Program-made: the position numbers and the translations under genes
DNA from: a bacterium
GTDB lineage: Bacteria > UBP6 > UBA1177
NCBI GenBank assembly: GCA_017405875.1
Contig: JAFQZM010000037.1
Location: 1-64,000 of the forward strand
Direction: 5' to 3'
Length of the DNA: 64,000 nt
Part shown: one piece after another, positions 1 to 53,256 of the stretch
Numbering within the stretch: position 1 is the first letter of the stretch
Layout of the letters: each line of letters starts with the position of its first letter
The notes under the pieces: generated by a model
Seen by the model: the letters and a program-made list of their open reading frames with translations, nothing else
What the model was told of the DNA's origin: nothing
Database searches by the model: none

Positions 1-439
1 AACACCTAAATTCTACAGATCCTTTTTTTGATGATTTGTATCATGTGATTGCTAAAATCAAGGCTTACGATTTTCATTATGGATACGAGAAAGAAAACCA
101 ACTCTTGGATAAAATTAAAGCTCATAATGCAGCCATAGATACGCCGAAATCGATTCAATGTGAGCAATCTGTTGTTCCACAAGAGCAAAAATTGCAAACT
201 GAACAAAAAAATTTGGACATTGACAACTATTATCAGAAAGGAAGATTGGACTTCTTAATTTATAGTTTCCATGCTCTCATGTCCAAACCGTTTCCCAATA
301 AACATCTGAATTCTACAGACTCTTTTTTTGATGAGTTTTATACTGCAATCGCAAAAATCAAAGGGTATGATTTCAAGTGTGGACGCGAGAAAGAAAATCA
401 ACTTTTGGAGAAGATTAAAGCTCATAATGCAAGCATAAC
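1..439 (+). repeat. Tandem intragenic duplication (about 140 bp unit, offset about 300 bp)
   Basis: Bases about 1-140 and 300-439 align closely without obvious gaps: both carry aattctacaga, then ctttttttgatga, then gagaaagaaaa and aaagctcataatgca. The encoded modules read NSTDPFFDDLYHVIAKIKAYD and NSTDSFFDEFYTAIAKIKGY. A third, diverged copy (SIYDSYFDSFKKQLKEIEKY) follows at about 730-860. The first two look like a recent duplication. The array may continue upstream of the window. Confidence 0.85.
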
Positions 440-2900
440 ATACTCTGAGTCAATTAACACTAATGTATTCAACAAACAAGAAGCAAAAATCAATTTTTCA
501 CCGTCAGTTAATAAGAAAATGAGTCTTGATGAGTTCATGGACAGTATAGGCGAAAATCCAGCGAAACCATCAGTTGTTAAAAAAGATCCTAAAATTAGCG
601 ATAGTTTGATGATTAACGCGAAAAACACGGAAAAAATAGGAAGCATAGAAAAAACAGAAGATTCCTCTGCATTTTCAATGTCTTTAATTCGGAAATTTCG
701 AGCATCTATTGCTGAACAACTTCCCGATAAATATTTTAGCATATATGATTCTTATTTTGATAGTTTTAAAAAACAATTGAAAGAGATAGAAAAATATTGT
801 GGAAATGACTCAAGTAAAGAAGAATCATATCGACTTGTGAGATCAATAGAATGGCATAATGAATATTTTATAAAAAACCACTTAAACGATCCTATTTTCG
901 ACAAAGTATGCGGTTATTCGCTGGATGAGGAGCAAAGAAGAGCGATTTTGTGCGATTCCAAACATAATTTGGTTGTTGCAGGTGCCGGAACGGGTAAAAC
1001 ACTGACAATATGCGGAAAAATCCAGTATTTACTGGAAAATAATCTGGCAAAAGAAGATGAAATCCTGCTGATGTCTTATTCCAGCGATTCAGTTGATGAT
1101 ATAAGCCGAAAAGTGGCAAAGGTTTCCGCAAATATGAAAGCCAAGACATTCCATTCTTTAGGAAATGAAATTTTAACCAAGCATTATGGGGAGAAAAAAG
1201 CTGTAGAAGATCAAATTCTCTCTCACATAAAAGCATTTCTTGAAGAACGGATTTCTTCTGACAACAAATTTGTTCAGAAGATATTTAAATATTTTTCATG
1301 CTATATTCGTTCAATCACCTTTGATTTTGAGAAAAAAGAAATCAATAAGGAAGAGCAGGATTGGACATTTAAAAAGCCATATAGGACATTGAAAGAAGCT
1401 CTGAAAAATCTCAATAAAGACCCCCAAAACAATGTTACAGCTAAAAAAGAATATGTTCGTAGCGTTCAGGAATTGGTTATAGCCAACTTCTTGTTTGTTA
1501 ACGGCATCGAATACGAGTATGAAAAACCTTATGAAATCAATACTGCAACTTTGGATAGACGCAGATATTGCCCTGATTTTTTCCTTCCTGATTACGGAAT
1601 TTATATAGAGCATTATGGCATAGATAAGGACGGACGAGCTCGTCAATATTCATACAATGAAGAACAAAATTACCTCGCAGGCATAGATTGGAAAAGAAAA
1701 ACGCATCGTGGAAACAATACTGTCTGTATCGAAACCTATTCTTATGAGTTCTCAAACGGAAAGATATTTACCAATTTAAAAAAGAAACTGGAAGAGCAGG
1801 AAGTTGAATTTAAACCATTGACTTCAAAACAGATCAAAGAAACAGTTTTAGACTTATATGAAGAACGTGATTTTTCAAAATTTATGGATGTTTTGGCAAC
1901 ATTCTTAGGACTTTATAAATCAAAATTCAGGGATAATACAAAGTTTGATTCATTTGTATATGGAACAGGTTACGAAAGAAAGAGAGCAACAATATTCCTC
2001 GAAATAGCGAAAGAAATCTATGATTACTATATCTCTCAGCTTAAAGAAAATGATAAAATTGATTTCGATGACATGATATTGCAGTCAACAGATTTTTTGG
2101 ATTTGCCGGAATTTCAGAACAAATACTGTTACAAATATATCCTTGTTGATGAATTTCAGGATATTTCTGAAAGCAGATTTAAGTTTTTGAAAAAATTGGT
2201 GGAACATGGAAATTCAAAACTGATGGTTGTAGGAGATGACTGGCAGTCTATATACAGATTTAACGGTTCCGATATAAATATTTTTGTAGATTTCAATAAA
2301 ACTACTTTCCCGGATGCTACAGTTAACTATATCACGACAACCCACAGAAATTCAGCTGAATTACAGGATATCGCAGGAAAGTTTATTATGAAAAATCCTC
2401 TGCAATTTAAAAAGCAGATCAAATCGGATAAACACCAGCAAGATCCTGTTCGAATAATAACTTACAAAGGCTATGATAATAGTTCGGTAGCATTGGAACA
2501 AGCTCTCCGTGAAATTTCCGGAATCAATTCTTCGGCTGAAATTTTGATATTGGGAAGAACTAATAACGATATCAATAAGAAATTCCAATCAGAAACAAAT
2601 CGGGCTTTTCCGAATTTTAAAATATCTTATAAAACGATTCACGGATCAAAAGGTTTGGAAAGCGATTTTGTCATACTGATCAACGCTGGCAATATTCCGA
2701 ACAAGATGATTGATGATCCGATAATTAACCGATTGCTGGCGACTCCTGAAGGTTTTATGTTCGCGGAAGAAAGACGTTTGTTTTATGTCACTCTGACAAG
2801 AACAAAATCGATAGTTTATATTTTAATGCAAGAGGAAAAACCATCTGTTTTTGTTGGAGAAATAAAGCCAGATTGTTGCGAAATGCATTTCGGTGAATAG
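3..2900 (+). CDS. UvrD/Rep-type (SF1) helicase with nuclease-like insertion; 5' end outside window
   Basis: Superfamily 1 DNA helicase. The frame is open to the window edge, so the true start lies upstream. Motifs seen: Walker A VAGAGTGKT (about residue 325 of the visible part), Walker B ILVDEFQD (about 712), GDDWQSIYRF (about 743), THRNS, HGSKGLESD, and motif VI RRLFYVTLTRTK near the C-terminus. Between motifs Ia and II (about residues 480-580) is an insertion with CPDFFLPDYGIYIEHYG, resembling the restriction-endonuclease-like insertions of some UvrD-like helicases. The N-terminal third has three copies of a roughly 50-residue helical module (FFDEFYTAIAKIKGYDF and relatives), the first two nearly identical at DNA level. 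The gene is AT-rich and sits next to a PARIS-like pair, so a role in phage defence is inferred. Which substrate it unwinds cannot be read. Confidence 0.85.
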   Translation, partial: HLNSTDPFFDDLYHVIAKIKAYDFHYGYEKENQLLDKIKAHNAAIDTPKSIQCEQSVVPQEQKLQTEQKNLDIDNYYQKGRLDFLIYSFHALMSKPFPNKHLNSTDSFFDEFYTAIAKIKGYDFKCGREKENQLLEKIKAHNASITYSESINTNVFNKQEAKINFSPSVNKKMSLDEFMDSIGENPAKPSVVKKDPKISDSLMINAKNTEKIGSIEKTEDSSAFSMSLIRKFRASIAEQLPDKYFSIYDSYFDSFKKQLKEIEKYCGNDSSKEESYRLVRSIEWHNEYFIKNHLNDPIFDKVCGYSLDEEQRRAILCDSKHNLVVAGAGTGKTLTICGKIQYLLENNLAKEDEILLMSYSSDSVDDISRKVAKVSANMKAKTFHSLGNEILTKHYGEKKAVEDQILSHIKAFLEERISSDNKFVQKIFKYFSCYIRSITFDFEKKEINKEEQDWTFKKPYRTLKEALKNLNKDPQNNVTAKKEYVRSVQELVIANFLFVNGIEYEYEKPYEINTATLDRRRYCPDFFLPDYGIYIEHYGIDKDGRARQYSYNEEQNYLAGIDWKRKTHRGNNTVCIETYSYEFSNGKIFTNLKKKLEEQEVEFKPLTSKQIKETVLDLYEERDFSKFMDVLATFLGLYKSKFRDNTKFDSFVYGTGYERKRATIFLEIAKEIYDYYISQLKENDKIDFDDMILQSTDFLDLPEFQNKYCYKYILVDEFQDISESRFKFLKKLVEHGNSKLMVVGDDWQSIYRFNGSDINIFVDFNKTTFPDATVNYITTTHRNSAELQDIAGKFIMKNPLQFKKQIKSDKHQQDPVRIITYKGYDNSSVALEQALREISGINSSAEILILGRTNNDINKKFQSETNRAFPNFKISYKTIHGSKGLESDFVILINAGNIPNKMIDDPIINRLLATPEGFMFAEERRLFYVTLTRTKSIVYILMQEEKPSVFVGEIKPDCCEMHFGE

Positions 2901-3159
2901 ATGAGTGAAATAAATTAAGGGGATTGATTTTGAAAATTTGCAATGGAATCGGTAAATACATTCTAATGATTAGAAACAAGCAACATTCTTATAATTTTTC
3001 TATGTCATCCGAAACGCCATATCGAATACTTTTATGACCGTTATTTTAAATAATTGTAATCAAAAGCACTCCAATTATAATATTTAGATTGTTGATTTTT
3101 TAGATAGCAGGGAAAAGCAATGAAAATGTTCTGTGAATATAAACAATAGGAGGATGTAT
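2901..3159. other. AT-rich intergenic region with promoter for the ariA-ariB pair
   Basis: There is no convincing gene here; the only open frames are a five-codon ORF right after the helicase stop and a 35-codon ORF without good start signals. A plausible promoter is TTGTAA (3054-3059), a 16-base spacer, then TATAAT (3076-3081), about 80 bases upstream of ariA. This suggests that the ATPase/DUF4435 pair is transcribed separately from the helicase. Confidence 0.45.
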
Positions 3160-4473
3160 ATGTTAAAATCATTAGAAATAACAAAACTTTTCAGACGCTT
3201 TGATTATAATTTATCTTTCAAAGCAGAAGGCATTATGATTATAACAGGTCCAAACGGATATGGAAAATCAACTATTTTGCGAATTCTCAACAATCTATGC
3301 AATGATAGTTTTGAAAAAGTACTTTCCTATTCATTTGAGACGCTGACAATAGTTTGCGAAAATGACAATGGTGAACCTCGCCTTAAAATCACAAAGGATG
3401 AAAATGAATTTAAGATTAATGACTATGCATTTCCATATCCTAAAAATAATCTTAGTAGAAGGCTTGATTTCTCTTCATTCATGGGGCAAATAACAATCAA
3501 TGACTTGTCAGAACATTGGAATTTTTTTAGGGAAGATACTGTTGAACAAAGATTTGTATCTTCAATTCTAGATACATTATCGGAAAAAAGGCTATCTTCA
3601 AATAAATTTCAAAGTGAAAGGAAAAAACTAAATACAGCAATGGGATTAATTAAAGACATTCAAAAAAGCATCGGCAATGTCCACTTTATTCAAGAGCAGA
3701 GGCTGATTGAAAAGAGAATGATTCCTGAAGATGAACAAAGATCTAGTCGTTCTAGAGTAAAATATGTTACCGTTATTAATGAAAATTCTGAAAAGCTCAA
3801 AGCCGAATTGGCAGAAATAATGAAAAAACATTCTTCATTATCCAGTAATCTTGATAGCACTTATATTAAGCGACTGTTTGAAACTAATAAAAACAAGCAA
3901 CTTCCAGCTGATATACTTGCCGGACTGAAAGAAATACAAGGTAAACAAGAGAAACTTCAAAAATACGGATTGGCAAAAATTCAAGATGCTTTAAATATGG
4001 ATAATTTGGCTGAAGATAAATTGCAAAGATTTGGCATAGAATTGTCTATTTATCTTGGAGATGCCAACAAGAAATACGAAGTCTTTGAATCAATAATCAA
4101 TAAATTGGACATATATGAGAGAATTGTTAACGAAAAGCTCACTTTCAAGAAAATGAAGCTTTCAAGTACTGACGGGATAGTCGTTGAAACGGATGATGGA
4201 AAGCCATTATCTCTAAATGATCTTTCTTCTGGAGAGCAAGAAATATTAGTGTTATTTTATAAATTAATTTTTGAATCGGATGTCAACCTTCTCCTAATAG
4301 ATGAACCTGAAATTTCATTGCACATTGCATGGCAAAAAGAACTAATGGAAAACCTTAAGAGTGTGGTAGATCTTAAAGAAAATATCCGGGTTGTGGTTGC
4401 TACTCATTCCCCTCAAATTATAACAAACAACTGGAATCTTCAGATTGATTTGGGAGAATTGTATAATGGTTAA
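3160..4473 (+). CDS. ariA: AriA-like ABC/AAA ATPase of a PARIS anti-phage system
   Basis: RecF/OLD-type ABC ATPase of 437 residues. Visible motifs are Walker A GPNGYGKST (about residue 31), VHFIQEQRL, the ABC signature LSSGEQE, Walker B LLLIDEPEISLH and the switch histidine in VVATHSPQI. Its partner is DUF4435, the pairing that defines PARIS, in which AriA holds AriB inactive until a phage anti-restriction protein is sensed. An upstream GTG (3133) would lengthen the protein, but AGGAGG at 3148-3153 is correctly spaced for ATG 3160. It overlaps ariB by 8 bases, implying translational coupling. AT-rich composition fits a transferred defence gene. Assignment rests on motifs plus gene pairing; another OLD-like ATPase/TOPRIM system is possible. 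Confidence 0.75.
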   Translation: MLKSLEITKLFRRFDYNLSFKAEGIMIITGPNGYGKSTILRILNNLCNDSFEKVLSYSFETLTIVCENDNGEPRLKITKDENEFKINDYAFPYPKNNLSRRLDFSSFMGQITINDLSEHWNFFREDTVEQRFVSSILDTLSEKRLSSNKFQSERKKLNTAMGLIKDIQKSIGNVHFIQEQRLIEKRMIPEDEQRSSRSRVKYVTVINENSEKLKAELAEIMKKHSSLSSNLDSTYIKRLFETNKNKQLPADILAGLKEIQGKQEKLQKYGLAKIQDALNMDNLAEDKLQRFGIELSIYLGDANKKYEVFESIINKLDIYERIVNEKLTFKKMKLSSTDGIVVETDDGKPLSLNDLSSGEQEILVLFYKLIFESDVNLLLIDEPEISLHIAWQKELMENLKSVVDLKENIRVVVATHSPQIITNNWNLQIDLGELYNG

Positions 4474-5284
4474 TTCTATTAGAGATTCACTTGACGAAAA
4501 CGACATAATTTCTGAAATTAAGTTAAAACTGAGTCAAGACAAAAAAAAAGTGTTTGTGGTAGTTGAAGGCGAAGATGATAAAAAGCTGTTTCTTCCTTTG
4601 CTTTCTGCAAATTCTGAAATATTGCAGTCCTACTCAAGCAGTATTGGAGTTAACAAAATAGTTCAATATTATTTTAAGGATAAAAGGGTAATTGGGATTC
4701 GAGATAAAGATTATTTCCAGAAACCAATAAATGAACAATGCTTTTTTTGTGATTATTCTTGCGCGGAAATGATGATTATTTCGGTGGATACTTGTTTTGA
4801 AAGGCTGTATTGTAACTGCTACAAAGGCGAAATGAGTAGTAATAAATTAAGAATTCATTGTCTCGAGCGATTGGAAAAACTAAGTAAACTTCGCAAGCTA
4901 AGCTTTATTAATGATTGGGGTGTTGAATTTGAGAAAACTAAACCTGGCAAGTTTTATCAAGAAAGCATTGATAACATGAATAACGCAATAATAGCTGATT
5001 TGAACATTAGGAATCCCCAAAGTCCAATTGATGCTGAAAGAGTAAGAATGTGTGAAGAACTCCCCAAATGTTCTGAACTGGCAGATTACCTATTGATAAC
5101 CAACGGTCATGATTTCATTAATTTGTTTTGCAATATTGTAACAACAAAACATCATCAAGTTGCAATAGATAAAATTGAGACAACTCTGAGAGCAACTTTT
5201 GGGAAAAATGAATTTAGTAGTACAAAGTTATATAAACAATTGCTTGATTATCAGAACGAAAATAACATAACTATTGTTCAGTAA
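4466..5284 (+). CDS. ariB: AriB-like DUF4435 (TOPRIM-type) effector nuclease of PARIS
   Basis: A 272-residue DUF4435 protein. The TOPRIM-like core is visible as FVVVEGEDDKKLF (conserved Glu and Asp pair), then IGIRDKDY, then DYSCAEMM, with the C-terminal signatures NGHDFINLF and TKLYKQLL. In studied PARIS systems AriB is the effector, released from AriA and cutting tRNA to abort infection. ATG 4466 is preceded by GGGAGA and overlaps the ariA stop; a TTG at 4445 in the same frame lacks a matching ribosome site. Composition stays AT-rich to the stop codon and then changes, so this is the right edge of the island. Specificity (which tRNA) cannot be judged from sequence alone. Confidence 0.75.
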   Translation: MVNSIRDSLDENDIISEIKLKLSQDKKKVFVVVEGEDDKKLFLPLLSANSEILQSYSSSIGVNKIVQYYFKDKRVIGIRDKDYFQKPINEQCFFCDYSCAEMMIISVDTCFERLYCNCYKGEMSSNKLRIHCLERLEKLSKLRKLSFINDWGVEFEKTKPGKFYQESIDNMNNAIIADLNIRNPQSPIDAERVRMCEELPKCSELADYLLITNGHDFINLFCNIVTTKHHQVAIDKIETTLRATFGKNEFSSTKLYKQLLDYQNENNITIVQ

Positions 5285-23428: not shown

Positions 23429-23989
23429 TTAAATTTTTACCAAATCTTTGATTTTGCTCTCAGACCAGTATTCGTTAGACCAAAAAAAATACTCGGTTTT
23501 ACGCTTTTTGAATATTCGGAAGGGAACTTTTGAGTTGTCATAAATATGAACAATGTCACATATGTTGATGAGTTCGGGTAAAAGTTTGAGTGCTTTTTTG
23601 TAGCGTGAAACGATTTTTTCTTCTGGAACTCCGTGTCCGCCGTTTGCTTCGCGTGATTTTACACGGGCAATATTGATGTTGCAATCGCAGGTAAGCACAT
23701 AAATACAGCGGATGAAATAGCCTTGTTCCTTTGCTTTTTTGAGCAGATTCAGATTTCTTTCTGTGGAAAGCACGGTTTCAAAGGTGAAACTCTTTTGCTC
23801 GGACAGTGCTTTCTCGCGCATTTTCTCTGCAAGTTGTGCAGCTTCAATATCTGAACAGTGGTTGACGCTTTTGATGTTATCTGCGTTGATATAAGGTTCG
23901 ATAATTTTTGCAAAACGCGTGATAGTCGATTTTCCGCTGCCGTTAGGACCGGCGAAAACGATTATTTCAGGCTTCTTCTGATTTTGCAT
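23429..23989 (-). CDS. Zeta-toxin-family P-loop kinase
   Basis: A 187-residue P-loop kinase. Walker A IIVFAGPNGSGKST, substrate-side Asp in YINADNIK, FTFETVLSTERNL, and the Arg-rich lid RVKSREANGGHGVPEEKIVSRY, as in zeta toxins that phosphorylate UDP-N-acetylglucosamine or related nucleotide sugars. ATG 23989 is chosen as it sits right at the Walker domain; a longer start (24022) is inside the upstream gene. It overlaps the small upstream gene by 23 bases, typical of a toxin-antitoxin pair. It ends 7 bases from the larB stop, convergent. Confidence 0.82.
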   Translation of the reverse strand: MQNQKKPEIIVFAGPNGSGKSTITRFAKIIEPYINADNIKSVNHCSDIEAAQLAEKMREKALSEQKSFTFETVLSTERNLNLLKKAKEQGYFIRCIYVLTCDCNINIARVKSREANGGHGVPEEKIVSRYKKALKLLPELINICDIVHIYDNSKVPFRIFKKRKTEYFFWSNEYWSESKIKDLVKI

Positions 23990-24179
23990 GGATATATTCT
24001 CTGTGACCGTCGGCGTATTCAAGGTAAGCCATCTTTTTCTCAGCGTCGTAACCGGCGATAGGAGTGCCTTTTATGCGCTTGATTTCATTGTCTATTCTGA
24101 CAGCTTCTTTGAAGAGTTTGGTCAACTCGTCGTCTGAAATTCCGCACATTGAATCAAGTTCATTGGTCTGTTCGTTCAT
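23967..24179 (-). CDS. Small protein, likely antitoxin partner of the zeta toxin
   Basis: A 70-residue acidic-basic protein, N-terminal half helical (SDDELTKLFKEAVRIDNEIKRI), then a short strand-rich tail (MAYLEYADGHREYIH). AGGAG lies just upstream of the start. Small genes of this type often precede and overlap zeta-like kinases and are thought to neutralise them; it does not look like the classical epsilon antitoxin. Function is by association. Confidence 0.6.
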   Translation of the reverse strand: MNEQTNELDSMCGISDDELTKLFKEAVRIDNEIKRIKGTPIAGYDAEKKMAYLEYADGHREYIHAKSEEA

Positions 24180-44357: not shown

Positions 44358-46403
44358 ATGTCGGATTTTATTTTTGAAATCGGTTATGAAGAGTTTCCTG
44401 CAAGTTTTATTCTTCCTTTCGTTTCGCAGATCAAGGAAAAGATACTTTCTGACCTTGAAAAACAGAGGATAACCGTCGGAGAATGCAGAGAATTTTCGAC
44501 TTGTTCGAGAACCGCTCTCGTCTGCACGGGACTTCCTGAAAAACAGCCCGACATCCGCGAAAAAGTTACAGGCGCACCGAAAAAAGTCGCTCTGAACGCC
44601 GACGGAACACTTTCCAAAGCGGGCGAAGCGTTTCTTGCAAAGAACAAGATCACAGAATATTTCTTTGAAAACAGCGAAAAAGGTGAAGTTATCGCGGGAT
44701 ACGTCGAAGAAAAGGGAAAAGAGCTTGCCGAAGTTATCGCTCCCATCGTAAAAGCGGCTCTCCATGCTGCAAATTTCAAAAAAAGCATGCGCTGGGCGGA
44801 GAACACTTTCGCATTCGCAAGACCGATCAGATGGATAATGCTTTCTATCGACGGAAAACCGGTCGAAGACGATTTCGAAGGGATAAAATTCTCCTCTACT
44901 TCTTTCGGTCACCGCTTCCTTTCGAACGGCGCTTTGCAAGTAAATGCCCAGAATTACTGTGAAACTCTTGAAGCTCACTACATTTTTGCAGACAGGGCGA
45001 AAAGACGTGAATACATCAATTCGGAAGTCGCGAAAAAGGCGGCTGAGTTCGGACTCACGGCAAATATCGATGAAAATCTTCTCGATGAAGTCACCGACAT
45101 GGTCGAATATCCGCACGTAGTCATCGGCAACATTCCCGAAAAATACAAAAATCTGCCGGTCGAACTCGTCGTGAAAGTCCTCAAGAAGGATCAGAGATAC
45201 TTCACTCTCTGCGACAAAAACGGACAGGTCGTCAAATTCGCAAGCGTTCTCAACAACATTCCGCGTGACGATTCAGTCGTTGTCGAAGGAAACGAAAAAG
45301 TCGTTTCCGCCCGTCTTTCCGATGCGGCGTTCTACTTCAACGACGACCTTGCAAAAGATTTTGCAGCTCTTTCCGAAAGGCTCAAAGGTGTGCTTTTCCA
45401 GAAGGATCTCGGAACTTACAGCGACAAAGTCGAGCGTATCTGCAAGATCGCGAAATTCATTGCAGACAAATGCTTCTCGCTTGATACTGCTGCATGTGAC
45501 AGGCTGCTTACTGCCGGAAAAATGATCAAAAACGATCTCGTCACGGGCGTTGTTTTTGAATTTCCCGATCTTCAGGGGATCATGGGCAGATACTACGCAA
45601 GACACGCCGGTTTTGAAAGCGATGTCTGCGAAGCGATGTACGAGCATTATCTTCCGATAAACGCAGGTGACGAACTTCCGAAGACCGAGATCGGAACTAT
45701 TTTAAGCATGGCTGACAAAATAGACACGATCGTCGGCGGATTCATGGCCGGAATGAAGCCGAGCGGCTCCAAAGACAAATTCGCTATCCGCAGAAATGCG
45801 ATCGGATTCCTCACCGTTGCGCAGAATTACGGCCTCAACATCAAGGAAGTCGTCGATTTTGCCTGGGAACTCGTAAAACCGCGCATCAAAAACCTTAAAA
45901 GTGAGATGAAGCAGGAGATAATCGACTTTATCGTTGCGAGATACAGCGCAGTCCTCAGTTTCGATACTCCTGTCATCCAGGCTGCCGCAGCGCGTGACGC
46001 CGAACTTCCGAAAACAGTTGCAAAACGCGCCGAGACCATCGCAAAAGTTCTCAAAGAGAGCGACATTTCAGGTCTGGTACAACTTTACAAACGCGGCTGC
46101 AACATACTGAAAAAACAGGAAGTCGTGCCCGGTGAAGTCAACGAATCGCTTTTCGAACAGGATGAAGAGAAAAAACTTTTCGCCGAAGTCTGCAAAGTCG
46201 AAAACGAGATAAAGACCATGAACGACAACTTCGAGATCGCGATGAAGATTCTCTCGCTCAAACCCGCGCTCGACGCATTTTTCGATGCGGTCTTCGTAAT
46301 GCACGACGACATTAAGATCAGGGCGAACAGAATGAACCTCATCGGCAAAGTTACCGGTCTGGTTGCCGAAAATATCGGTGAAATAAGCTTTTTGAATATT
46401 TAA
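44358..46403 (+). CDS. glyS: Glycyl-tRNA synthetase beta subunit
   Basis: A 681-residue beta chain. FIFEIGYEEFPASFI at the N-terminus, MRWAENTFAFARPIRWIM, EVTDMVEYPHVVIG, LPVELVVKVLKKDQRYFTL and the HD-like segment MGRYYARHAGF are all typical. It binds tRNA and supports the alpha chain. The next gene lies in an AT-rich block that does not resemble this one in composition. Confidence 0.96.
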   Translation: MSDFIFEIGYEEFPASFILPFVSQIKEKILSDLEKQRITVGECREFSTCSRTALVCTGLPEKQPDIREKVTGAPKKVALNADGTLSKAGEAFLAKNKITEYFFENSEKGEVIAGYVEEKGKELAEVIAPIVKAALHAANFKKSMRWAENTFAFARPIRWIMLSIDGKPVEDDFEGIKFSSTSFGHRFLSNGALQVNAQNYCETLEAHYIFADRAKRREYINSEVAKKAAEFGLTANIDENLLDEVTDMVEYPHVVIGNIPEKYKNLPVELVVKVLKKDQRYFTLCDKNGQVVKFASVLNNIPRDDSVVVEGNEKVVSARLSDAAFYFNDDLAKDFAALSERLKGVLFQKDLGTYSDKVERICKIAKFIADKCFSLDTAACDRLLTAGKMIKNDLVTGVVFEFPDLQGIMGRYYARHAGFESDVCEAMYEHYLPINAGDELPKTEIGTILSMADKIDTIVGGFMAGMKPSGSKDKFAIRRNAIGFLTVAQNYGLNIKEVVDFAWELVKPRIKNLKSEMKQEIIDFIVARYSAVLSFDTPVIQAAAARDAELPKTVAKRAETIAKVLKESDISGLVQLYKRGCNILKKQEVVPGEVNESLFEQDEEKKLFAEVCKVENEIKTMNDNFEIAMKILSLKPALDAFFDAVFVMHDDIKIRANRMNLIGKVTGLVAENIGEISFLNI

Positions 46404-46419
46404 ATGCTGAAATAACCCC

Positions 46420-46447
46420 TTGTTTTTCGTCAGTTTTTCACTATAAT
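46420..46447 (+). promoter_or_regulatory. Promoter for the mscS-RyR-TIR block, copy of the lysS promoter
   Basis: TTGTTT (46420-46425), 16 bases, TATAAT (46442-46447). The stretch 46417-46465 aligns with 51595-51643 ahead of lysS, including 15 identical bases gtttttcactataat and a similar start region. It fits a duplication of the lysS promoter when the block was inserted. Confidence 0.6.
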
Positions 46448-46481
46448 TTGCAGGTGTGACTTTATTTGATGAATTTATGAT

Positions 46482-47528
46482 ATGTGTAAAATCATGAGTA
46501 ATCGATTAATGGCTTCTAAAAACATGTTTTGTCAGATTTTGGGAGCTCTGTTTAAACCATCGGCAATTTCCGTAATAGGCTGGTTTTTGTTGTTATGTCT
46601 AGGTGTTGTCGCTTGTTTTCAATTTGCTGGTCTTCAAATTTTCGGGAATTTGATAGAACTTCCTTGTAAATTGTATATCTTTGGTGGCGTAACTATCGCA
46701 GCTCTGCTTGCCATATCTGCATGTTCCACCCTGACAGATGTGTTCAGCCTTCTCAAAAAGGAGGTGGAACTTACTCGTTGTCAAATTGCAATTCTTGTTG
46801 TGATTGGACTTTGGATTATTAGCTTTTTGCTAATTTTCGATATACGGCAAGACACTACGTACTATCTGGCTTTGTTAGTTTTAGGATCGATGGTTGGATG
46901 GATATTTAAAGATATTCTTAGAGGAGTGACAGCGTTTGTACATCTTCGTATAAACCACCTCTTGAATATTGGAGATTGGGTTCAGGTGCCTAAATACAAT
47001 GTGGATGGCGAGGTTAGGCGAGTGACATTAACTACGGTGACTATTCTTAATTGGGACACCACGACATCTTCCTTGCCTATTGCAGCGCTGCATACGGAAC
47101 ATTTTGTGAATATGCAAAGGATGGCTGAAGGGAAAACATACGGACGTCAAATGGTTAAAACATTTTATATAAACAATAAATATATTCATTCGCTGTCTGC
47201 TCAAGAAGCTGATAGCTTAAGAAAGAAATTAATATTAAATGATGCTCCTCATTATTTGCAAGAGTGTGATATTCAAGAAGGAGCTCTCAACATTCGATTG
47301 TTTCGTCTATATATTTACCATTGGTTAATGAACCACCCAGATGTTTCTCAGAAGCCATGGGTTCTTGCTCGCTGGATGGATCCTGGCGAGCACGGTACTC
47401 CACTACAAATATACATTTACCTGACTAAATCTAATCTGTCCGCTTATGAGTGGTCTCAATCTCAAATTATAGAACATATAATTAGTTCATTAGATTTGTT
47501 CGGTTTGGAACTCTTTCAGAGTAGTTAA
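46482..47528 (+). CDS. MscS-family mechanosensitive channel (YbdG-like)
   Basis: A 348-residue channel. Three to four transmembrane helices at about 25-50, 62-80, 100-120 and 125-145 end in the pore helix, then the cytoplasmic beta domain: HLLNIGDWVQVPKYNVDGEVRRVTLTTVTILNWD, given here in parts as NIGDWVQVPKYNVDGEV and TTVTILNWDTTTSSLP. This matches the YbdG/MscM group. The gene is visibly AT-rich like its three downstream neighbours and faces the same way, 60 bases ahead of the next. In a defence setting such a pore could collapse the membrane, but a plain osmotic role cannot be excluded. Confidence 0.82.
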   Translation: MCKIMSNRLMASKNMFCQILGALFKPSAISVIGWFLLLCLGVVACFQFAGLQIFGNLIELPCKLYIFGGVTIAALLAISACSTLTDVFSLLKKEVELTRCQIAILVVIGLWIISFLLIFDIRQDTTYYLALLVLGSMVGWIFKDILRGVTAFVHLRINHLLNIGDWVQVPKYNVDGEVRRVTLTTVTILNWDTTTSSLPIAALHTEHFVNMQRMAEGKTYGRQMVKTFYINNKYIHSLSAQEADSLRKKLILNDAPHYLQECDIQEGALNIRLFRLYIYHWLMNHPDVSQKPWVLARWMDPGEHGTPLQIYIYLTKSNLSAYEWSQSQIIEHIISSLDLFGLELFQSS

Positions 47529-47588
47529 GATGTTAAGGAGAGCAATTCTCAGGAAACAAGCAATGAAAAATAAAAATAAGGAAAAAAT

Positions 47589-48707
47589 ATGAAAAAATAT
47601 TCAAAAAAACAATTGGAACAGCCTTTTGAGTATCTAAGGAGAAAAAAAGGAGAACTTTTCGAACCTGAAATTATAGCTAATTGGTATAAAGCTCGTGCAT
47701 TTGTGCTAAATGAGTTCCGTAACATAGCGTTTCTTCCCGACAACACAAACCATTTTCATCCAATTGTAATGGTAGATGACGATTGCGGGCTAATGCTGTC
47801 GGTTGCGCGAAAACTGGCTTTGTATGCACACTTCTTAAATTACAATGAAAACAGTCACGATATCAAAGGGCGTAATCGTACATGTATTACTTTAGTCACA
47901 AGCGATCCCAATATACTCGAGAAAATGCAGGAAGAGGAGTACCTTTGTAATCTGCCAAAGTATTGCTGCCTTTCTTTTTATGATGACAAACCGAAAAATA
48001 CTGACTCATATGTAGATATTGAGATAGAAATAGTTAAAGATTGTCCTGATCTAAGTGCTGATTATGAGTTTTTAATAACTGCTGATAAAGTAAGGGCGTT
48101 TTGTGACTCTAAGGATTCCGAAGATATTTATTTCATTGATACCCGACGGGCTGTATGGACAGAAAGAATTTATAATTTGGGAGCCGGGATAGACAATCTT
48201 CCGTATGAAGACATACATAATATCGAACGCTATGCGATGGCTTTGGATATATTCCAATTCAGAGAAATGAAAAAGAAGATGACAGCATTGATTCCTGAAA
48301 ATCTGAGTCAAAATAAGGTGAAAGAACATCTTTCGAGTTTGTTCTGCTCAGATTGTTTTGATTCGCGCTTTCAGGCTATAGAACAATTTTGCAGCAACAA
48401 ACAAGCTATGCAAATAGACAGATGGAAGCCTTTTCATGATGCTCTTTGTATGAGCGAACATGCTAGGTGGGTTACGGAAAAACTAATTATGGGTTATCGC
48501 CCGCTTAGTGAAGAAGAACGTCTATATGAAGAATGCCTTTTCGATAATGAAAAAATTCAATATCGAAAACAATTAAAGAACAATCCCGATGATTTGGTGC
48601 ATATTGACATTTGTTCACTTGCTGACTTATACCGTATTGATCCGGATAGCTTGAAATATGACAGTTTTCTTATGTTAAGTATTCCCACAATTATCAGGAA
48701 TGGGTAA
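47589..48707 (+). CDS. Rossmann-like protein with a C-terminal RyR-like domain
   Basis: A 372-residue protein of no firmly named family. The N-terminal half (HPIVMVDDDCGLMLSVARKL, ALYAHFLNY, TCITLVTSDPNIL) looks like a degenerate nucleotide-binding Rossmann unit, as in the TrkA-N part of some bacterial RyR proteins. The C-terminal hundred residues (FHDALCMSEHARWVTEKLIMGYRP, quoted here in part as SEHARWVTEKLIMGYRP, then DDLVHIDICSLADLY and LMLSIPTII) follow the EHxRW...GW...HPDLVPW pattern of RyR-like repeats. A true RyR-domain gene follows 5 bases later. AT-rich. Role as a nucleotide sensor is inferred. Confidence 0.55.
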   Translation: MKKYSKKQLEQPFEYLRRKKGELFEPEIIANWYKARAFVLNEFRNIAFLPDNTNHFHPIVMVDDDCGLMLSVARKLALYAHFLNYNENSHDIKGRNRTCITLVTSDPNILEKMQEEEYLCNLPKYCCLSFYDDKPKNTDSYVDIEIEIVKDCPDLSADYEFLITADKVRAFCDSKDSEDIYFIDTRRAVWTERIYNLGAGIDNLPYEDIHNIERYAMALDIFQFREMKKKMTALIPENLSQNKVKEHLSSLFCSDCFDSRFQAIEQFCSNKQAMQIDRWKPFHDALCMSEHARWVTEKLIMGYRPLSEEERLYEECLFDNEKIQYRKQLKNNPDDLVHIDICSLADLYRIDPDSLKYDSFLMLSIPTIIRNG

Positions 48708-48712
48708 TAATT

Positions 48713-49003
48713 ATGAAAATTAATAACTATAAACCTCAACCTATAGACGTATCAGGCATCGCTTTACCGACAGAGTTGGAACCATTAATTGAACAAATCG
48801 CGCAGAATGTGCATGAAGTTTGGGCAGAGACACGTATTCGGCAAGGTTGGATCTATGGGGTTGAGCGGAATGACATGCTTAAGACTCACCCATGCATTAT
48901 CCCATACGAGAAATTAAGCGAAAATGAAAAAGATTATGATCGCAATACTGCTATCAATACGCTTAAACTGATTGTTAAATTGGGTTTTAAAATAGTGAGG
49001 TAA
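48713..49003 (+). CDS. Stand-alone RyR-domain protein
   Basis: A 96-residue single RyR domain (the repeat named after ryanodine receptors). Matching features: YKPQPIDVSGIALPTELEPL, IEQIAQNVHEVWAETRIRQG, WIYGVERNDMLKTHPCIIPY, EKLSENEKDYDRNTAINTLK and a closing GFKI. The length is exactly one domain, with nothing attached. Prokaryotic RyR domains are rare and unstudied; in animal receptors this region has been linked to nucleotide binding. Five bases after the RyR-like gene and 95 before the TIR gene, so probably one operon. Confidence 0.85.
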   Translation: MKINNYKPQPIDVSGIALPTELEPLIEQIAQNVHEVWAETRIRQGWIYGVERNDMLKTHPCIIPYEKLSENEKDYDRNTAINTLKLIVKLGFKIVR

Positions 49004-49098
49004 TACCATGCAAACGAAAAATCATCCCCAAAAATATTTTGCATTTATTAAAAAGCGTTATTATATAGATTGATTTAGCATTTTAAGGAAATAATAAA

Positions 49099-51219
49099 AT
49101 GAAAAACACAGTATTTATATCGTATAAACATTCCATTGACGGAATGCCGACGGAAGATTCAAAGATGGCTAAAGAGTTATATGGAGAATTGGTTCGTAAC
49201 GGTATCAATACATTTTTTGCCGACAAAACTCTTTTGGAAGTTGGAGCGGATGGATATAAGGAACAAATTGATGCTGAGTTAGATGTTTGTCTGATTCTTG
49301 TCGTTGTTGGAACATCTGTTGATAATATGATGTCGGGCTGGGTTAAATATGAGTGGAACGGGTTCCAAACGGACATTTTAAATGGTTGTAAAAAAGGGAA
49401 GATCTTCACATATGTAGATAATATTAATCCGCATGATTTACCAAGGGCGTTGCGCGGGGTGCAATCTTTTGATAGGAAAAAAGATTCTTTGGGTAAAATT
49501 GTGGAATTTATAAAAAATGCGATTGTTAGTTTGGAAGCTGAAAATAATGATTCCGGTGAAATATATAATAAAATTGTTAATGATGAAAGAGAAAATCCAC
49601 CTGTTCTAGAAAATCCTTTCGCGGCAAGATTGCTAAAAAAATTTAAAACTATTAGCAATGTTTTTACTTTGTTAGATTTAGATTATTTACCTTCTAAATC
49701 ACCTGTTGATTCTTTTGATTTAAATGATTTGGTGCAAATATTTCAAGAAGAAAAAGAGGAAAAGTTTCTCTCCACAACATCTATTATTTACAAACAAGTA
49801 AGGTGTATTATATATGGTGAAGGTGGTTCTGGTAAAACGACATTCTTACAACACAAGGCTTTTGAGGTGTCCTCGGAATTAATAGATAACAATATTGTTT
49901 TTCCGCTTTATATTAGATTGGCTGAATGTGATGAGGATACATTTGCAAGTATTAATACTCTTTTGATCGCTTGTAACAAATCTATATATGAAATTTGTTT
50001 TGATGAAATATGTGATATATTTAAAAATAAAAAACTAATTCTGTTTCTCGATGGTCTTGATGAGTATTCTGTTGATAATAACATGAAGACTTCTCTTTTG
50101 TTTGAGAGCATTAATAAGTTTTCTTTGGAATATGATTGTTCTGTTATAATAACATGCAGAACTAAGTATTTGCCGGAAAATACATCTTATCAAAAATATA
50201 AAATATCACCGTTGTCTAACAACCTGATAAAAGAATTTATAAAAAGGTATTTTGACTTCTTTAATATTAACATGAATCCTGATAAATTTTTGTCATTGCT
50301 TCCTCGTGAAGTTTTGGCTTTAACCACATCACCACTTATTCTGTCAATGGTTGTTGCTCAATATTATATGACAAAATCAATCCCATCTAATAAAGATGAA
50401 TTGTATGAGAAAATTATGACACAACTGTTGAAGAAAAAACCAATTATTTCAGACGAATTACTTCAGGTAGGTGAAAAATTCTATCTACTTTGCTATTTGG
50501 CATTTTCAATCTTATTAAGCGGCAAATTATCTTTCAATTATTTTGATGCAATCAAAGTTGTTGATGAACGAAATTCATATAACTTGCCTTCAACAAAAAT
50601 TCTGGATGATTTTATTCATTCTGGTATATTGAGTAAAAATGATAATTTTGTTTCTTTTTTTCATTCAAGCGTCTTGGAATTTTTTTCTTCTCAGGAAATC
50701 AATAAAGAATATTCTTTTGTAGCAAAAGCATCCATGGATCAATATTTCTTAAGGAATGAGCAAAAAATTGACCGCATAATAAGATGTATCAGGCCCTCGG
50801 ATAATGATGAAATAATAGAAATCGGTGCTGGAATAGGCACAGTCAGTTTGCAGTTAAATAATTATAAAAAACTATATTTGGTTGATTTGGATGAAGGTCT
50901 TTGTAAAATACTAAATTATAATTTTAGACATAGAAAAAATTGTGAAATAATCCAAGATGACGCTATTAAAATGTTGCAAAATTTAAGATTTAATAAGGTC
51001 ATTAGCAATTTGCCATTTTTTCTAACTAAAGATGTTCTCAGGGCATTAGAAACAGTTGATTTTCAAATAGCTGTAATGTCAATTAAGGAGGATGATAATC
51101 TTTCGGAATTTAGTGATATTTTCAAAATTGAGGAGTTATGCGTACTTCTTGAAGATGATTTTTTCCCGCGTCAACCATTTAAATCGAGATTAATTAAAGC
51201 TACAAAAATATTAAAATAA
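49099..51219 (+). CDS. TIR-NACHT STAND protein with C-terminal KsgA/Dim1-like methyltransferase domain
   Basis: A 706-residue three-part protein. TIR domain at 1-145 (VFISYKHS, FADKTLLEVG, candidate NADase Glu85 in WVKYEW). NACHT ATPase at about 235-400: Walker A GEGGSGKTT (240-248), Walker B LILFLDGLDEYS (313-324), sensor ITCRTKYLP, winged helix to about 535. From about 545 a KsgA/Dim1-like SAM domain: SMDQYFLRNEQKIDRII, EIGAGIGTVS (574-583), NLPFFLT (637-643), and FFPRQPFKSRLIKA near the end. The usual QxExAxR region and C-terminal helical domain of KsgA are missing. TIR-NACHT architecture is that of anti-phage STAND sensors; a methyltransferase in place of the repeat sensor is unusual. Strongly AT-rich (17 G+C in 60 bases at 50641). 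Confidence 0.85.
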   Translation: MKNTVFISYKHSIDGMPTEDSKMAKELYGELVRNGINTFFADKTLLEVGADGYKEQIDAELDVCLILVVVGTSVDNMMSGWVKYEWNGFQTDILNGCKKGKIFTYVDNINPHDLPRALRGVQSFDRKKDSLGKIVEFIKNAIVSLEAENNDSGEIYNKIVNDERENPPVLENPFAARLLKKFKTISNVFTLLDLDYLPSKSPVDSFDLNDLVQIFQEEKEEKFLSTTSIIYKQVRCIIYGEGGSGKTTFLQHKAFEVSSELIDNNIVFPLYIRLAECDEDTFASINTLLIACNKSIYEICFDEICDIFKNKKLILFLDGLDEYSVDNNMKTSLLFESINKFSLEYDCSVIITCRTKYLPENTSYQKYKISPLSNNLIKEFIKRYFDFFNINMNPDKFLSLLPREVLALTTSPLILSMVVAQYYMTKSIPSNKDELYEKIMTQLLKKKPIISDELLQVGEKFYLLCYLAFSILLSGKLSFNYFDAIKVVDERNSYNLPSTKILDDFIHSGILSKNDNFVSFFHSSVLEFFSSQEINKEYSFVAKASMDQYFLRNEQKIDRIIRCIRPSDNDEIIEIGAGIGTVSLQLNNYKKLYLVDLDEGLCKILNYNFRHRKNCEIIQDDAIKMLQNLRFNKVISNLPFFLTKDVLRALETVDFQIAVMSIKEDDNLSEFSDIFKIEELCVLLEDDFFPRQPFKSRLIKATKILK

Positions 51220-51597
51220 TTGATTGTTCTATCTGGAGAAACTTCATTAGATGGTGTATAGTGGTAAACAAAAACTGGACAGAGGTTGAGTATAATAGCC
51301 AGCATTTCCAGCCAAAAAATCCCATATATCTTAAAAAAAATTATTGATTCTCTCATCTAAAAAGATATGGAAAAAATGTCGGTCTTTTGGGGGTGGGGTA
51401 TTTGGTGTTCCTGTTTTTTCGGAAAAATAAGAATATAAACACTGGAATTTACAAAATTTTTTTATGCCATCGAAAGAAAAAATGAATCAAATTTCTTGGC
51501 ACAAAAATCCTTGACAGCAAATTTTTATTTCGACGGTTCGACTAAGCTCACCGACCGAAACTTAACACCATTAGCCATGAAGTAATTCGTTTCGCCC
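51220..51597. other. AT-rich intergenic stretch after the TIR-NACHT gene
   Basis: About 380 bases with no supported gene. It is AT-rich up to about 51530, then holds a REP-like element and composition becomes like the host genome. This is the likely right junction of the inserted block. No tRNA, integrase or clear terminator was found. Confidence 0.5.
51531..51557. repeat. REP-like palindromic element
   Basis: cgacggttcgactaagctca followed by ccgaccg. CGGT and ACCG arms enclose tcgactaagctc. It resembles the widespread intergenic repeat type with the core TCGACTGAGCTCACC found in many bacterial genomes. Only one copy was seen in the window, so the call is by resemblance. Confidence 0.4.
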
Positions 51598-51625
51598 TTG
51601 TTTTCAAATCGTTTTTCACTATAAT
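51598..51625 (+). promoter_or_regulatory. lysS promoter
   Basis: TTGTTT (51598-51603), 16 bases, TATAAT (51620-51625). The transcript would start near 51632, just ahead of the leader-peptide ribosome site. See the matching copy at 46420. Confidence 0.6.
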
Positions 51626-51655
51626 CCTCCGCTGTAACTTTGATTGGAGGAGAGT

Positions 51656-51697
51656 ATGAGTTACAAAGCACTTTTAAAGTGTTTCAATAAAAAATAA
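51656..51697 (+). CDS. Lys-rich leader peptide upstream of lysS
   Basis: A 13-residue frame, MSYKALLKCFNKK, with four Lys, after a very strong ribosome site (GGAGGAGAG at 51646). The gap to lysS is 26 bases. TCCTCC at 51625-51630 is complementary to GGAGGA at 51646-51651 and could hide the site. There is no room for an attenuator hairpin between the peptide and lysS, so if it regulates, it would be through translation coupling. Could be chance. Confidence 0.4.
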   Translation: MSYKALLKCFNKK

Positions 51698-51723
51698 CTT
51701 GATGTTGCTTAATGGAGAAAAAA

Positions 51724-53256
51724 ATGGCTGAAAACAAAGCTCCGGAAACAAAAGTAGTTCCGCAGATGGATGAAAACGAGATCATAGCCCGCAAAAAAGA
51801 GAAAGTTAAAATGCTGCGCGAAGAGGGAATCCACCCTTACGCAAATAATTTTGCTCCCGATTCGACGGTAGAAAAGGTCGTTGAATACTGTAAGACCCAG
51901 ACGAAAGAAGAACTTGAGCAGACGGGAAAACCGCTTGAATTCGCAGTTGCAGGCAGGATCATGTTCCTTCGCATCATGGGAAAACTCGCGTTTGCAAATC
52001 TCAAGGACGAGACGGGCTCCATCCAGATCCTTTTCGCAAAAGACTTCCTCGGTGAAGATTTCGCGAAGTTCAAAAAGGCTTTCGATGTCGGTGATATAGT
52101 CTGGGTAAAAGGCGAAGTTTTCGTTACGAGAACGGGCGAATACTCGATCCTTGCTCACAAAACCGAGCTTCTCACGAAAAATATCCGTCCGCTTCCAGAA
52201 AAATTCCACGGACTTACCGATAAAGAGCTCCGCTACCGCCAGAGATACCTCGACCTCATCATGAACGATGATGTCAGAGCGACTTTCAAAAAGAGAGTGA
52301 AAATCATCAATTTCATCAGAAACTACATGAATAATGCCGGTTTCATGGAAGTCGAGACCCCGATGATGCACCCGCTCGTCAGCGGTGCCGCGGCGAAACC
52401 TTTCATCACGCACCACAACGCGCTCGACATTCCGCTTTACATGAGAATTGCGCCTGAGTGCTACCTCAAAAGACTTCTTGTCGGCGGACTCGGCAAAGTT
52501 TACGAGATCAACCGCAGCTTCAGAAACGAGGGAATGGACCTCAAACACAACCCGGAATTCACGATGATGGAGTTCTACTGGCCGTATGCGACCTACGAAG
52601 ACCAGATCCGCTTTACGCAGGAAATGATAAGCAAACTCTGCGTTGAGATAAACGGCTCGACCGAAGTTGAATACGACGGAATGAAAATCGATTTCAAAGC
52701 TCCGTGGAACAGAATGACGGTCGAAGAAAGCATCGTAAAATCGGGCGTTTGCACCGAAGAAGACCTCAAAGACAGAGAAAAACTCATTGAAATCGGTGTC
52801 AAAAACGGTCTCGACAAGGCAACGCTTGAAGGAATGTCACGCTACAAAATCATCATGGAATTCTTTGACAACTTTGTCGAAGAGCACCTGATCCAGCCGA
52901 CATTCATCACGAAATATCCGACCGAAGTGAGCCCGCTCGCCCGCAGAAATGACGTAGAGCCGGAATACACCGACAGATTCGAACTTTTCGTCGCAGGGCG
53001 TGAGCTTTCCAACGCATTCAGCGAACTCAACGACCCGAAACAGCAGTACGATTCGTTTGCGGCTCAGGTCGAAGCAAAGAAAGCGGGCGATGACGAAACC
53101 GTCGACATGGATAGCGACTACATCCGCGCTCTCGAATACGGAATGCCGCCGGCAGCAGGTCAGGGCATCGGTATCGACAGACTCGTCATGCTCATGACCA
53201 ATTCGCCGAGCATCCGTGATGTCATCCTCTTCCCCACAATGAAACCGGAAAAATAA
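51724..53256 (+). CDS. lysS: Lysyl-tRNA synthetase (class II)
   Basis: A 510-residue class II LysRS. Anticodon-binding OB fold at about 55-160 (VAGRIMFLRIMGKLAFANLKD). Class II motif 1 near FMEVETPMMHPLVSGAAAKP, motif 2 FRNEGMDLKHNPEFTMMEFY, motif 3 GQGIGIDRLVMLM. ATG 51724 is chosen because GGAG at 51714-51717 is its ribosome site; ATG 51712 lies before that. Codon use and G+C (about half in the line at 52501) are like the host, unlike the block upstream. Confidence 0.96.
   Translation: MAENKAPETKVVPQMDENEIIARKKEKVKMLREEGIHPYANNFAPDSTVEKVVEYCKTQTKEELEQTGKPLEFAVAGRIMFLRIMGKLAFANLKDETGSIQILFAKDFLGEDFAKFKKAFDVGDIVWVKGEVFVTRTGEYSILAHKTELLTKNIRPLPEKFHGLTDKELRYRQRYLDLIMNDDVRATFKKRVKIINFIRNYMNNAGFMEVETPMMHPLVSGAAAKPFITHHNALDIPLYMRIAPECYLKRLLVGGLGKVYEINRSFRNEGMDLKHNPEFTMMEFYWPYATYEDQIRFTQEMISKLCVEINGSTEVEYDGMKIDFKAPWNRMTVEESIVKSGVCTEEDLKDREKLIEIGVKNGLDKATLEGMSRYKIIMEFFDNFVEEHLIQPTFITKYPTEVSPLARRNDVEPEYTDRFELFVAGRELSNAFSELNDPKQQYDSFAAQVEAKKAGDDETVDMDSDYIRALEYGMPPAAGQGIGIDRLVMLMTNSPSIRDVILFPTMKPEK

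Follow-up and report, generated by a model that had tools for sequence, protein, structure and literature searches.

Four AT-rich genes lie between glyS and lysS in the 64,000-nucleotide stretch of bacterial DNA analysed here (the window), and they raise the question of whether a TIR protein, RyR-type proteins and an ion channel work together in defence against phage. The sequence-only reading had proposed that they do so as an operon, with the TIR protein making a nucleotide from NAD, RyR domains binding it and an MscS pore responding. We give a probability of roughly 0.6 to the reading that these genes, here named A to D, form a Thoeris-like acquired immunity cassette in which a TIR signal would act through an RyR receptor on an MscS pore.

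The inserted block between glyS and lysS

The four open reading frames are co-directional on the plus strand, flanked by glyS (44358-46403) on one side and lysS (from 51712) on the other. Their GC content is 0.38 for A, 0.36 for B, 0.38 for C and 0.30 for D, whereas glyS has 0.47, lysS 0.49 and the ORFs of the window a median of 0.458. Coordinates, strand and composition agree with the sequence-only reading, as does the spacing of 95 bases between C and D. The parts it named also hold up: the MscS, RyR and TIR-NACHT-methyltransferase assignments are borne out by Pfam for A, C and D, and the RyR-like assignment of B by profile comparison.

The entire inserted block spans 46404-51711, with no strand assigned. 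In congeners G014 and G022 the site is empty and glyS leads directly to lysS; in G013 and G015 no more than about 15 bases separate the end of glyS from the lysS match. The same junction holds other cargo in G020, G017, G018, G011 and further congeners, which by ORF reading consists of VapC-like toxin-antitoxin pairs and ATPases. Compared across the genus (positions 44358-53256 of the window), the junction is a cargo hotspot that is either empty or filled with toxin-antitoxin genes, ATPases or the A-D block. Since the site is empty in some congeners, the block is an insertion at this hotspot and, on comparative sequence evidence, a horizontally acquired one. B and C are missing from all 27 relatives of the same phylum. 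The host phylum comprises 28 genomes in the collection searched, and on that count it differs from the phylum of the Bacteroidales loci described below.

A 52-base leader containing TTTTTCA-TATAAT, a possible promoter of A, precedes the block on the plus strand (46417-46468), and a second copy with 73% identity is found upstream of lysS (51595-51646). The same leader occurs in G020 and G017, where a toxin-antitoxin-like gene pair follows glyS and the leader stands 5' of its first member. Because the leader also precedes other cargo, A may be driven by a captured promoter. Promoter and terminator scans gave no signal above chance.

Two further regions of the window are recorded here as separate observations. 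Positions 3-5284, at the window edge, contain a low-GC UvrD/GajB-like helicase, an AAA_15/OLD-like ATPase and an unknown 279-aa gene, possibly a second defence cluster. A zeta-toxin-like gene is located at 23429-24022 on the minus strand.

A predicted pore and gate, a free RyR domain and a TIR fusion

Gene A (46482-47528, plus strand) encodes a YbdG-like MscS channel of 348 aa, the predicted pore. It matches MS_channel_2nd (PF00924) with an E value of 9.5e-9 and a score over the cut-off, and is conserved in all 11 homologues. It is 32% identical to E. coli YbdG across 231 aa and has a PDB match to YnaI. The pore helix and beta domain of the MscS family are present, as in YbdG/YnaI-type channels; the housekeeping YbdG-like channels, however, branch separately from A and its relatives with a support of 1.0, and the MscS class of A is assigned by sequence. 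MscS matches on plasmids turned out to be ordinary YbdG-type channels, and the four whose surroundings were inspected had neither TIR nor RyR genes nearby.

Gene B (47589-48707, plus strand) encodes a previously unannotated protein of 372 aa that has no match in Pfam, NCBIfam or PADLOC. Profile comparison with hhalign aligns B 48-378 to positions 314-677, in the soluble half, of a group of channel-RCK-RyR proteins (99.6%, E 5e-24), which in one piece combine transmembrane helices with an RCK domain, another Rossmann region and a domain resembling RyR. The C-terminal third of B (48414-48704, plus strand) is RyR-like in this comparison, though without a Pfam match, and its residues H291, W294, H338 and D358 are invariant in the 11 B proteins and also kept in the one-piece proteins. 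By profile homology, B appears to be the detached RCK-like and RyR gating half of channel-RCK-RyR proteins. The A-B pair therefore looks like a split version of such a channel, with a pore gene followed by the gene for its predicted gate. A model of one channel-RCK-RyR protein matches GsuK (ADP- or NAD-bound), CASTOR and Slo1 with E values of 1e-9 to 1e-6 and a TM-score of only about 0.35. The AlphaFold model of B itself was poor (pLDDT 61) and a fold search with it returned no match, RCK folds included; PDB sequence searches with the B profile and with the TIR of D yielded nothing useful.

Gene C (48713-49003, plus strand) encodes a free-standing RyR domain of 96 aa (PF02026, E 3.4e-35). Its residues H34, W37, H59 and D76 correspond with identical spacing to H75, W78, H100 and D117 of the phage protein RyDEP; B keeps H, W, H and D at these positions too, with longer loops. 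RyR domains bind 2'/3'cADPR, and in RyDEP these four residues hold the ligand; RyDEP breaks down cADPR isomers, which its homologues sequester, in a counter-defence role (PMC13232231). Among eight RyR homologues in that study, two bound no signal and none cleaved the signals (PMC13232231), so conservation of the residues proves neither binding nor cleavage. C could be a co-receptor, a sponge or buffer, or a reset that destroys the signal and acts as an off-switch. On a Priestia plasmid (L005, NZ_CP128553), an RyR gene with 53% identity to C directly follows a Pycsar-type cyclase and a Pycsar effector and adjoins a TIR gene.

Gene D (49099-51219, plus strand) encodes a protein of 706 aa with a TIR domain (residues 1-145), a NACHT domain (236-385) and a KsgA/Erm-like region (542-706). 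The TIR domain (49099-49533, plus strand; PF13676) scores 26.3 bits on the protein (TIR_2, E 1.1e-5), slightly below the 28-bit cut-off, and 30 bits, above the cut-off, in the genome search. Alignment to the TIR proteins found at the other loci places a putative catalytic residue at Glu85 (SGWVKYE), which lines up with a Glu in these partners. The ThsB_TIR Pfam model matches the partner TIRs of G029, G233 and G820, and D has no match to it. The NACHT ATPase (49804-50253, plus strand; PF05729, E 1.4e-13) has the Walker A motif GEGGSGKTT. The C-terminal region (50722-51219, plus strand; RrnaAD, PF00398, E 2.1e-14) spans positions 4-115 of the 263-position model, with the motifs EIGAGIG and NLPF, and has a KsgA/Erm-like methyltransferase fold from which the target-recognition domain is absent. 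Of the NACHT domain and C-terminal sensor of bacterial NLR defence proteins, D has a NACHT match, and its C-terminus is a methyltransferase-like domain. The methyltransferase may be a sensor, an effector or a relic. MADS membership was considered and rejected: in PADLOC, mad2 matches the methyltransferase stretch of D only, no further mad match occurs in A-D and the mad gene set is absent.

Composition changes within D, from a GC content of 0.36 in the TIR part, like that of A-C, to 0.28 in the remainder. This step suggests that D may be a fusion created by sensor exchange, in which the NACHT-methyltransferase half looks swapped. The best match to the TIR of D, at 42-43%, is a TIR-FGE protein of G381; its gene shares a cluster (L100) with another TIR gene and with a TM-TrkA_N-RyR channel, which is related to the A-B system but made in one piece. 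The TIR-NACHT-methyltransferase architecture was not found elsewhere, the other loci use other TIR proteins, and the sequence-only reading's placing of D as a fixed fourth member is not supported. Because the architecture of D turned up nowhere else and its NACHT-methyltransferase half has a GC content unlike that of A-C, the four genes of the window may not be one operon.

Neighbourhoods of A and B in other genomes

Scanning genome contigs with C gave 30 RyR loci, all in Bacteroidales and mainly from rumen and gut. A TIR gene lies within 10 kb at 21 of them (counting the TIR of L064, confirmed by Pfam), and one-piece channel-RCK-RyR proteins were detected at 10. The gene order is A-B-C-TIR at L052 and TIR-TIR-RyR-A-B-TIR at L041. 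B is rare, occurring in 3 of 393 genomes of the order sample with the seed genome counted. Outside the window it was found in 10 genomes, all Bacteroidales, three of which were reached through RyR and seven more through a genome search with the B profile. A stands immediately 5' of B at all 10 of these loci (11/11 with the window), with a 4-base overlap in five, and A and B distances are correlated (Mantel p 3e-4, excluding the outlier G551). Viral contigs searched with D, with the A alignment, and with B and its alignment held no relatives, and no relatives of B were found on plasmids or in phages.

The wider neighbourhood recurs as well. An RyR gene and a TIR gene are each present at the locus in eight of the 10 further genomes, which makes nine of 11 for each with the window. 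Genome-wide searches of the 11 genomes placed 19 of 23 TIR_2 matches within about 12 kb of A-B. For RyR the count is 11 of 14, and the remaining three share the contig with A-B at distances of up to 21 kb. In G028, G030, G233, G551 and G820, the window genome apart, the sole TIR of the genome is at the A-B locus. Uniform placement would put TIR at the locus in nine of 11 genomes with a probability of about 3e-16, and RyR with one of about 4e-18. The RyR count is biased for the three genomes found through RyR (G028-G030); of the seven reached only by way of B, five have TIR at the locus and five have RyR there. The exceptions, G035 and G556 for TIR and G556 and G820 for RyR, all have A-B near a contig end. 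In G035 the contig stops just downstream of A-B, and the one TIR of this genome sits close to the start of a different contig, following a TPR gene of the same kind, so G035 is probably a sixth TIR locus among these seven. In the window, G028, G686, G029 and G820, the set has a TIR gene as its immediate neighbour. Cargo other than A-B, RyR and TIR differs between loci.

The sequence-only reading had named as evidence against itself the finding that homologues of its four genes are rarely neighbours elsewhere. A co-occurrence search gave the opposite result, since pore, RyR-like, RyR and TIR genes recur together at the frequencies given above. Such clustering is an association within islands and by itself is not proof of one pathway.

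Several other genes at these loci also deserve description. Anti-sigma-like proteins with a C-terminal RyR domain are encoded inside TIR/A-B clusters (L041:17896-19456, L079:12278-14037 and L081:3675-5414); zf-HC2 is weak in the L041 protein, and a sigma-factor-like neighbour gene is backed by Pfam in L079. This arrangement suggests ADPR-controlled transcription. ADPR-handling genes (PARP, PARG and NrtR) occur near TIR/RyR clusters, and together with the anti-sigma-RyR proteins beside sigma factors they fit an ADPR-type signal. In three genomes, paralogous TPR proteins with TQQGYVKTKGRMVNGQLVPGQGLKGA-like N-termini (L069, L070, L084 and L085) are encoded next to TIR or in the interval that separates it from RyR. 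After the TIR-WD40 gene at the A-B-C locus of G686 comes a DUF4062 protein (L078:13787-15688), a family reported to be a TIR-like NADase (PMC13174449).

A candidate TIR-RyR-pore pathway and its relation to known systems

In the cassette that we favour, the variable NACHT/methyltransferase half of D would act as the infection sensor. The TIR domain of D would turn NAD+ into a signal of the ADP-ribose type, for which a cyclic ADPR isomer is the likeliest candidate. This signal would be bound by the RyR-like domain of B, whose RCK-like Rossmann and RyR regions are predicted to form the gating subunit of A, and also by the free RyR domain C, as a co-receptor or as a buffer or off-switch. Binding would open the MscS-type pore and cause an ion leak, and the infected cell would arrest growth or die ahead of phage release. 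This route from TIR to pore gains in specificity from the published finding that RyR domains bind 2'/3'cADPR (PMC13232231) and from the homology of B to a gating half.

It is unlikely, in our judgement, that D acts alone as an NLR-like NADase in TIR-NACHT abortive infection while A-B-C is a separate osmotic channel that senses ADPR or NAD status and shares the island. D does unite a sensor, a switch and a TIR domain in a single protein; a gap of 95 bases and the difference in GC set it apart from C, and its architecture is not conserved alongside A-B. Genomes with different TIR proteins nevertheless have their single TIR beside A-B, and the TIR part of D has the GC content of A-C and its closest relative in a cluster with an RyR channel. 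A different division of labour, which we consider quite improbable, would make B and C protective off-switches that bind or destroy the TIR product, with the channel restoring ion balance instead of killing. It draws on RyDEP, which cleaves cADPR isomers with the same residues and has homologues that sequester them (PMC13232231), and on the catalytic pair H34/D76 carried by C. Against it, B is tied to the pore gene at 11/11 loci and matches the gating halves of ligand-gated channels, an effector arrangement. That unrelated genes came together by chance or through general defence-island clustering is scarcely credible: the glyS-lysS junction is a genus hotspot that also takes up toxin-antitoxin and ATPase genes, but uniform placement gives P of about 1e-15, the A-B order is fixed and the A-B-C order recurs across 11 genomes, and the remaining cargo at those loci varies.

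If the cassette reading is true, RyR domains are host-side receptors of immune signals, beyond their part in phage counter-defence, and MscS-type ion pores join the effectors of TIR signals. It would also give a likely function to the unannotated B family and to the Bacteroidales channel-RCK-RyR proteins, and provide a compact system in which to test an old question, whether cyclic ADP-ribose acts directly on ryanodine-receptor domains. A bolder proposal, possible but doubtful, is an undescribed class of bacterial immunity: a cyclic ADPR isomer made by TIR would open a pore via RyR, in a one-piece channel-RCK-RyR form and a split MscS plus RCK-RyR form, and the class would be a prokaryotic root of the link between cADPR and the ryanodine receptor in animals.

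We provisionally regard the system as a candidate new variant of TIR-signal defence. An RyR-MscS-TIR system is absent from the literature searched, and papers on NAD/ADPR networks and conflict systems describe no prokaryotic RyR or MscS in such a role. Outside that scope are the Yirmiya 2025 preprint, reportedly a systematic survey of TIR systems, and a 2015 NAR paper by Burroughs and colleagues, which may discuss such contexts. A, B and C draw no match from PADLOC, and Pfam, NCBIfam and PADLOC find none of the ThsA-type effector domains (SIR2-SLOG, macro or caspase-like) in A-C.

Among known systems, RCK-gated K+ channels (GsuK, CASTOR and Slo1) are comparable through B, which aligns with the second RCK-like and RyR part of one-piece proteins whose model resembles them; here, in contrast, separate genes encode the predicted gate and an MscS-like pore, and an extra RyR domain is present. 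Phage RyDEP proteins (PF02026) have the RyR family and the four ligand residues in common with C, but serve phage counter-defence, whereas the RyR domains described here are host-side, beside a TIR and a pore. Pycsar likewise uses a nucleotide signal that acts on a membrane effector, and the Priestia plasmid RyR gene follows a Pycsar-type cyclase; the window, however, has neither a cyclase nor a Pycsar effector. As in Thoeris, a TIR protein lies next to a gene pair, here a putative effector whose RyR-like domain is predicted to bind a signal of the ADPR type, and the partners are interchangeable. The differences are that the predicted effector here is a separate MscS pore with an RCK-RyR receptor, not a SIR2-SLOG, TM-macro or caspase-like protein, and that the TIR is fused to NACHT and methyltransferase domains.
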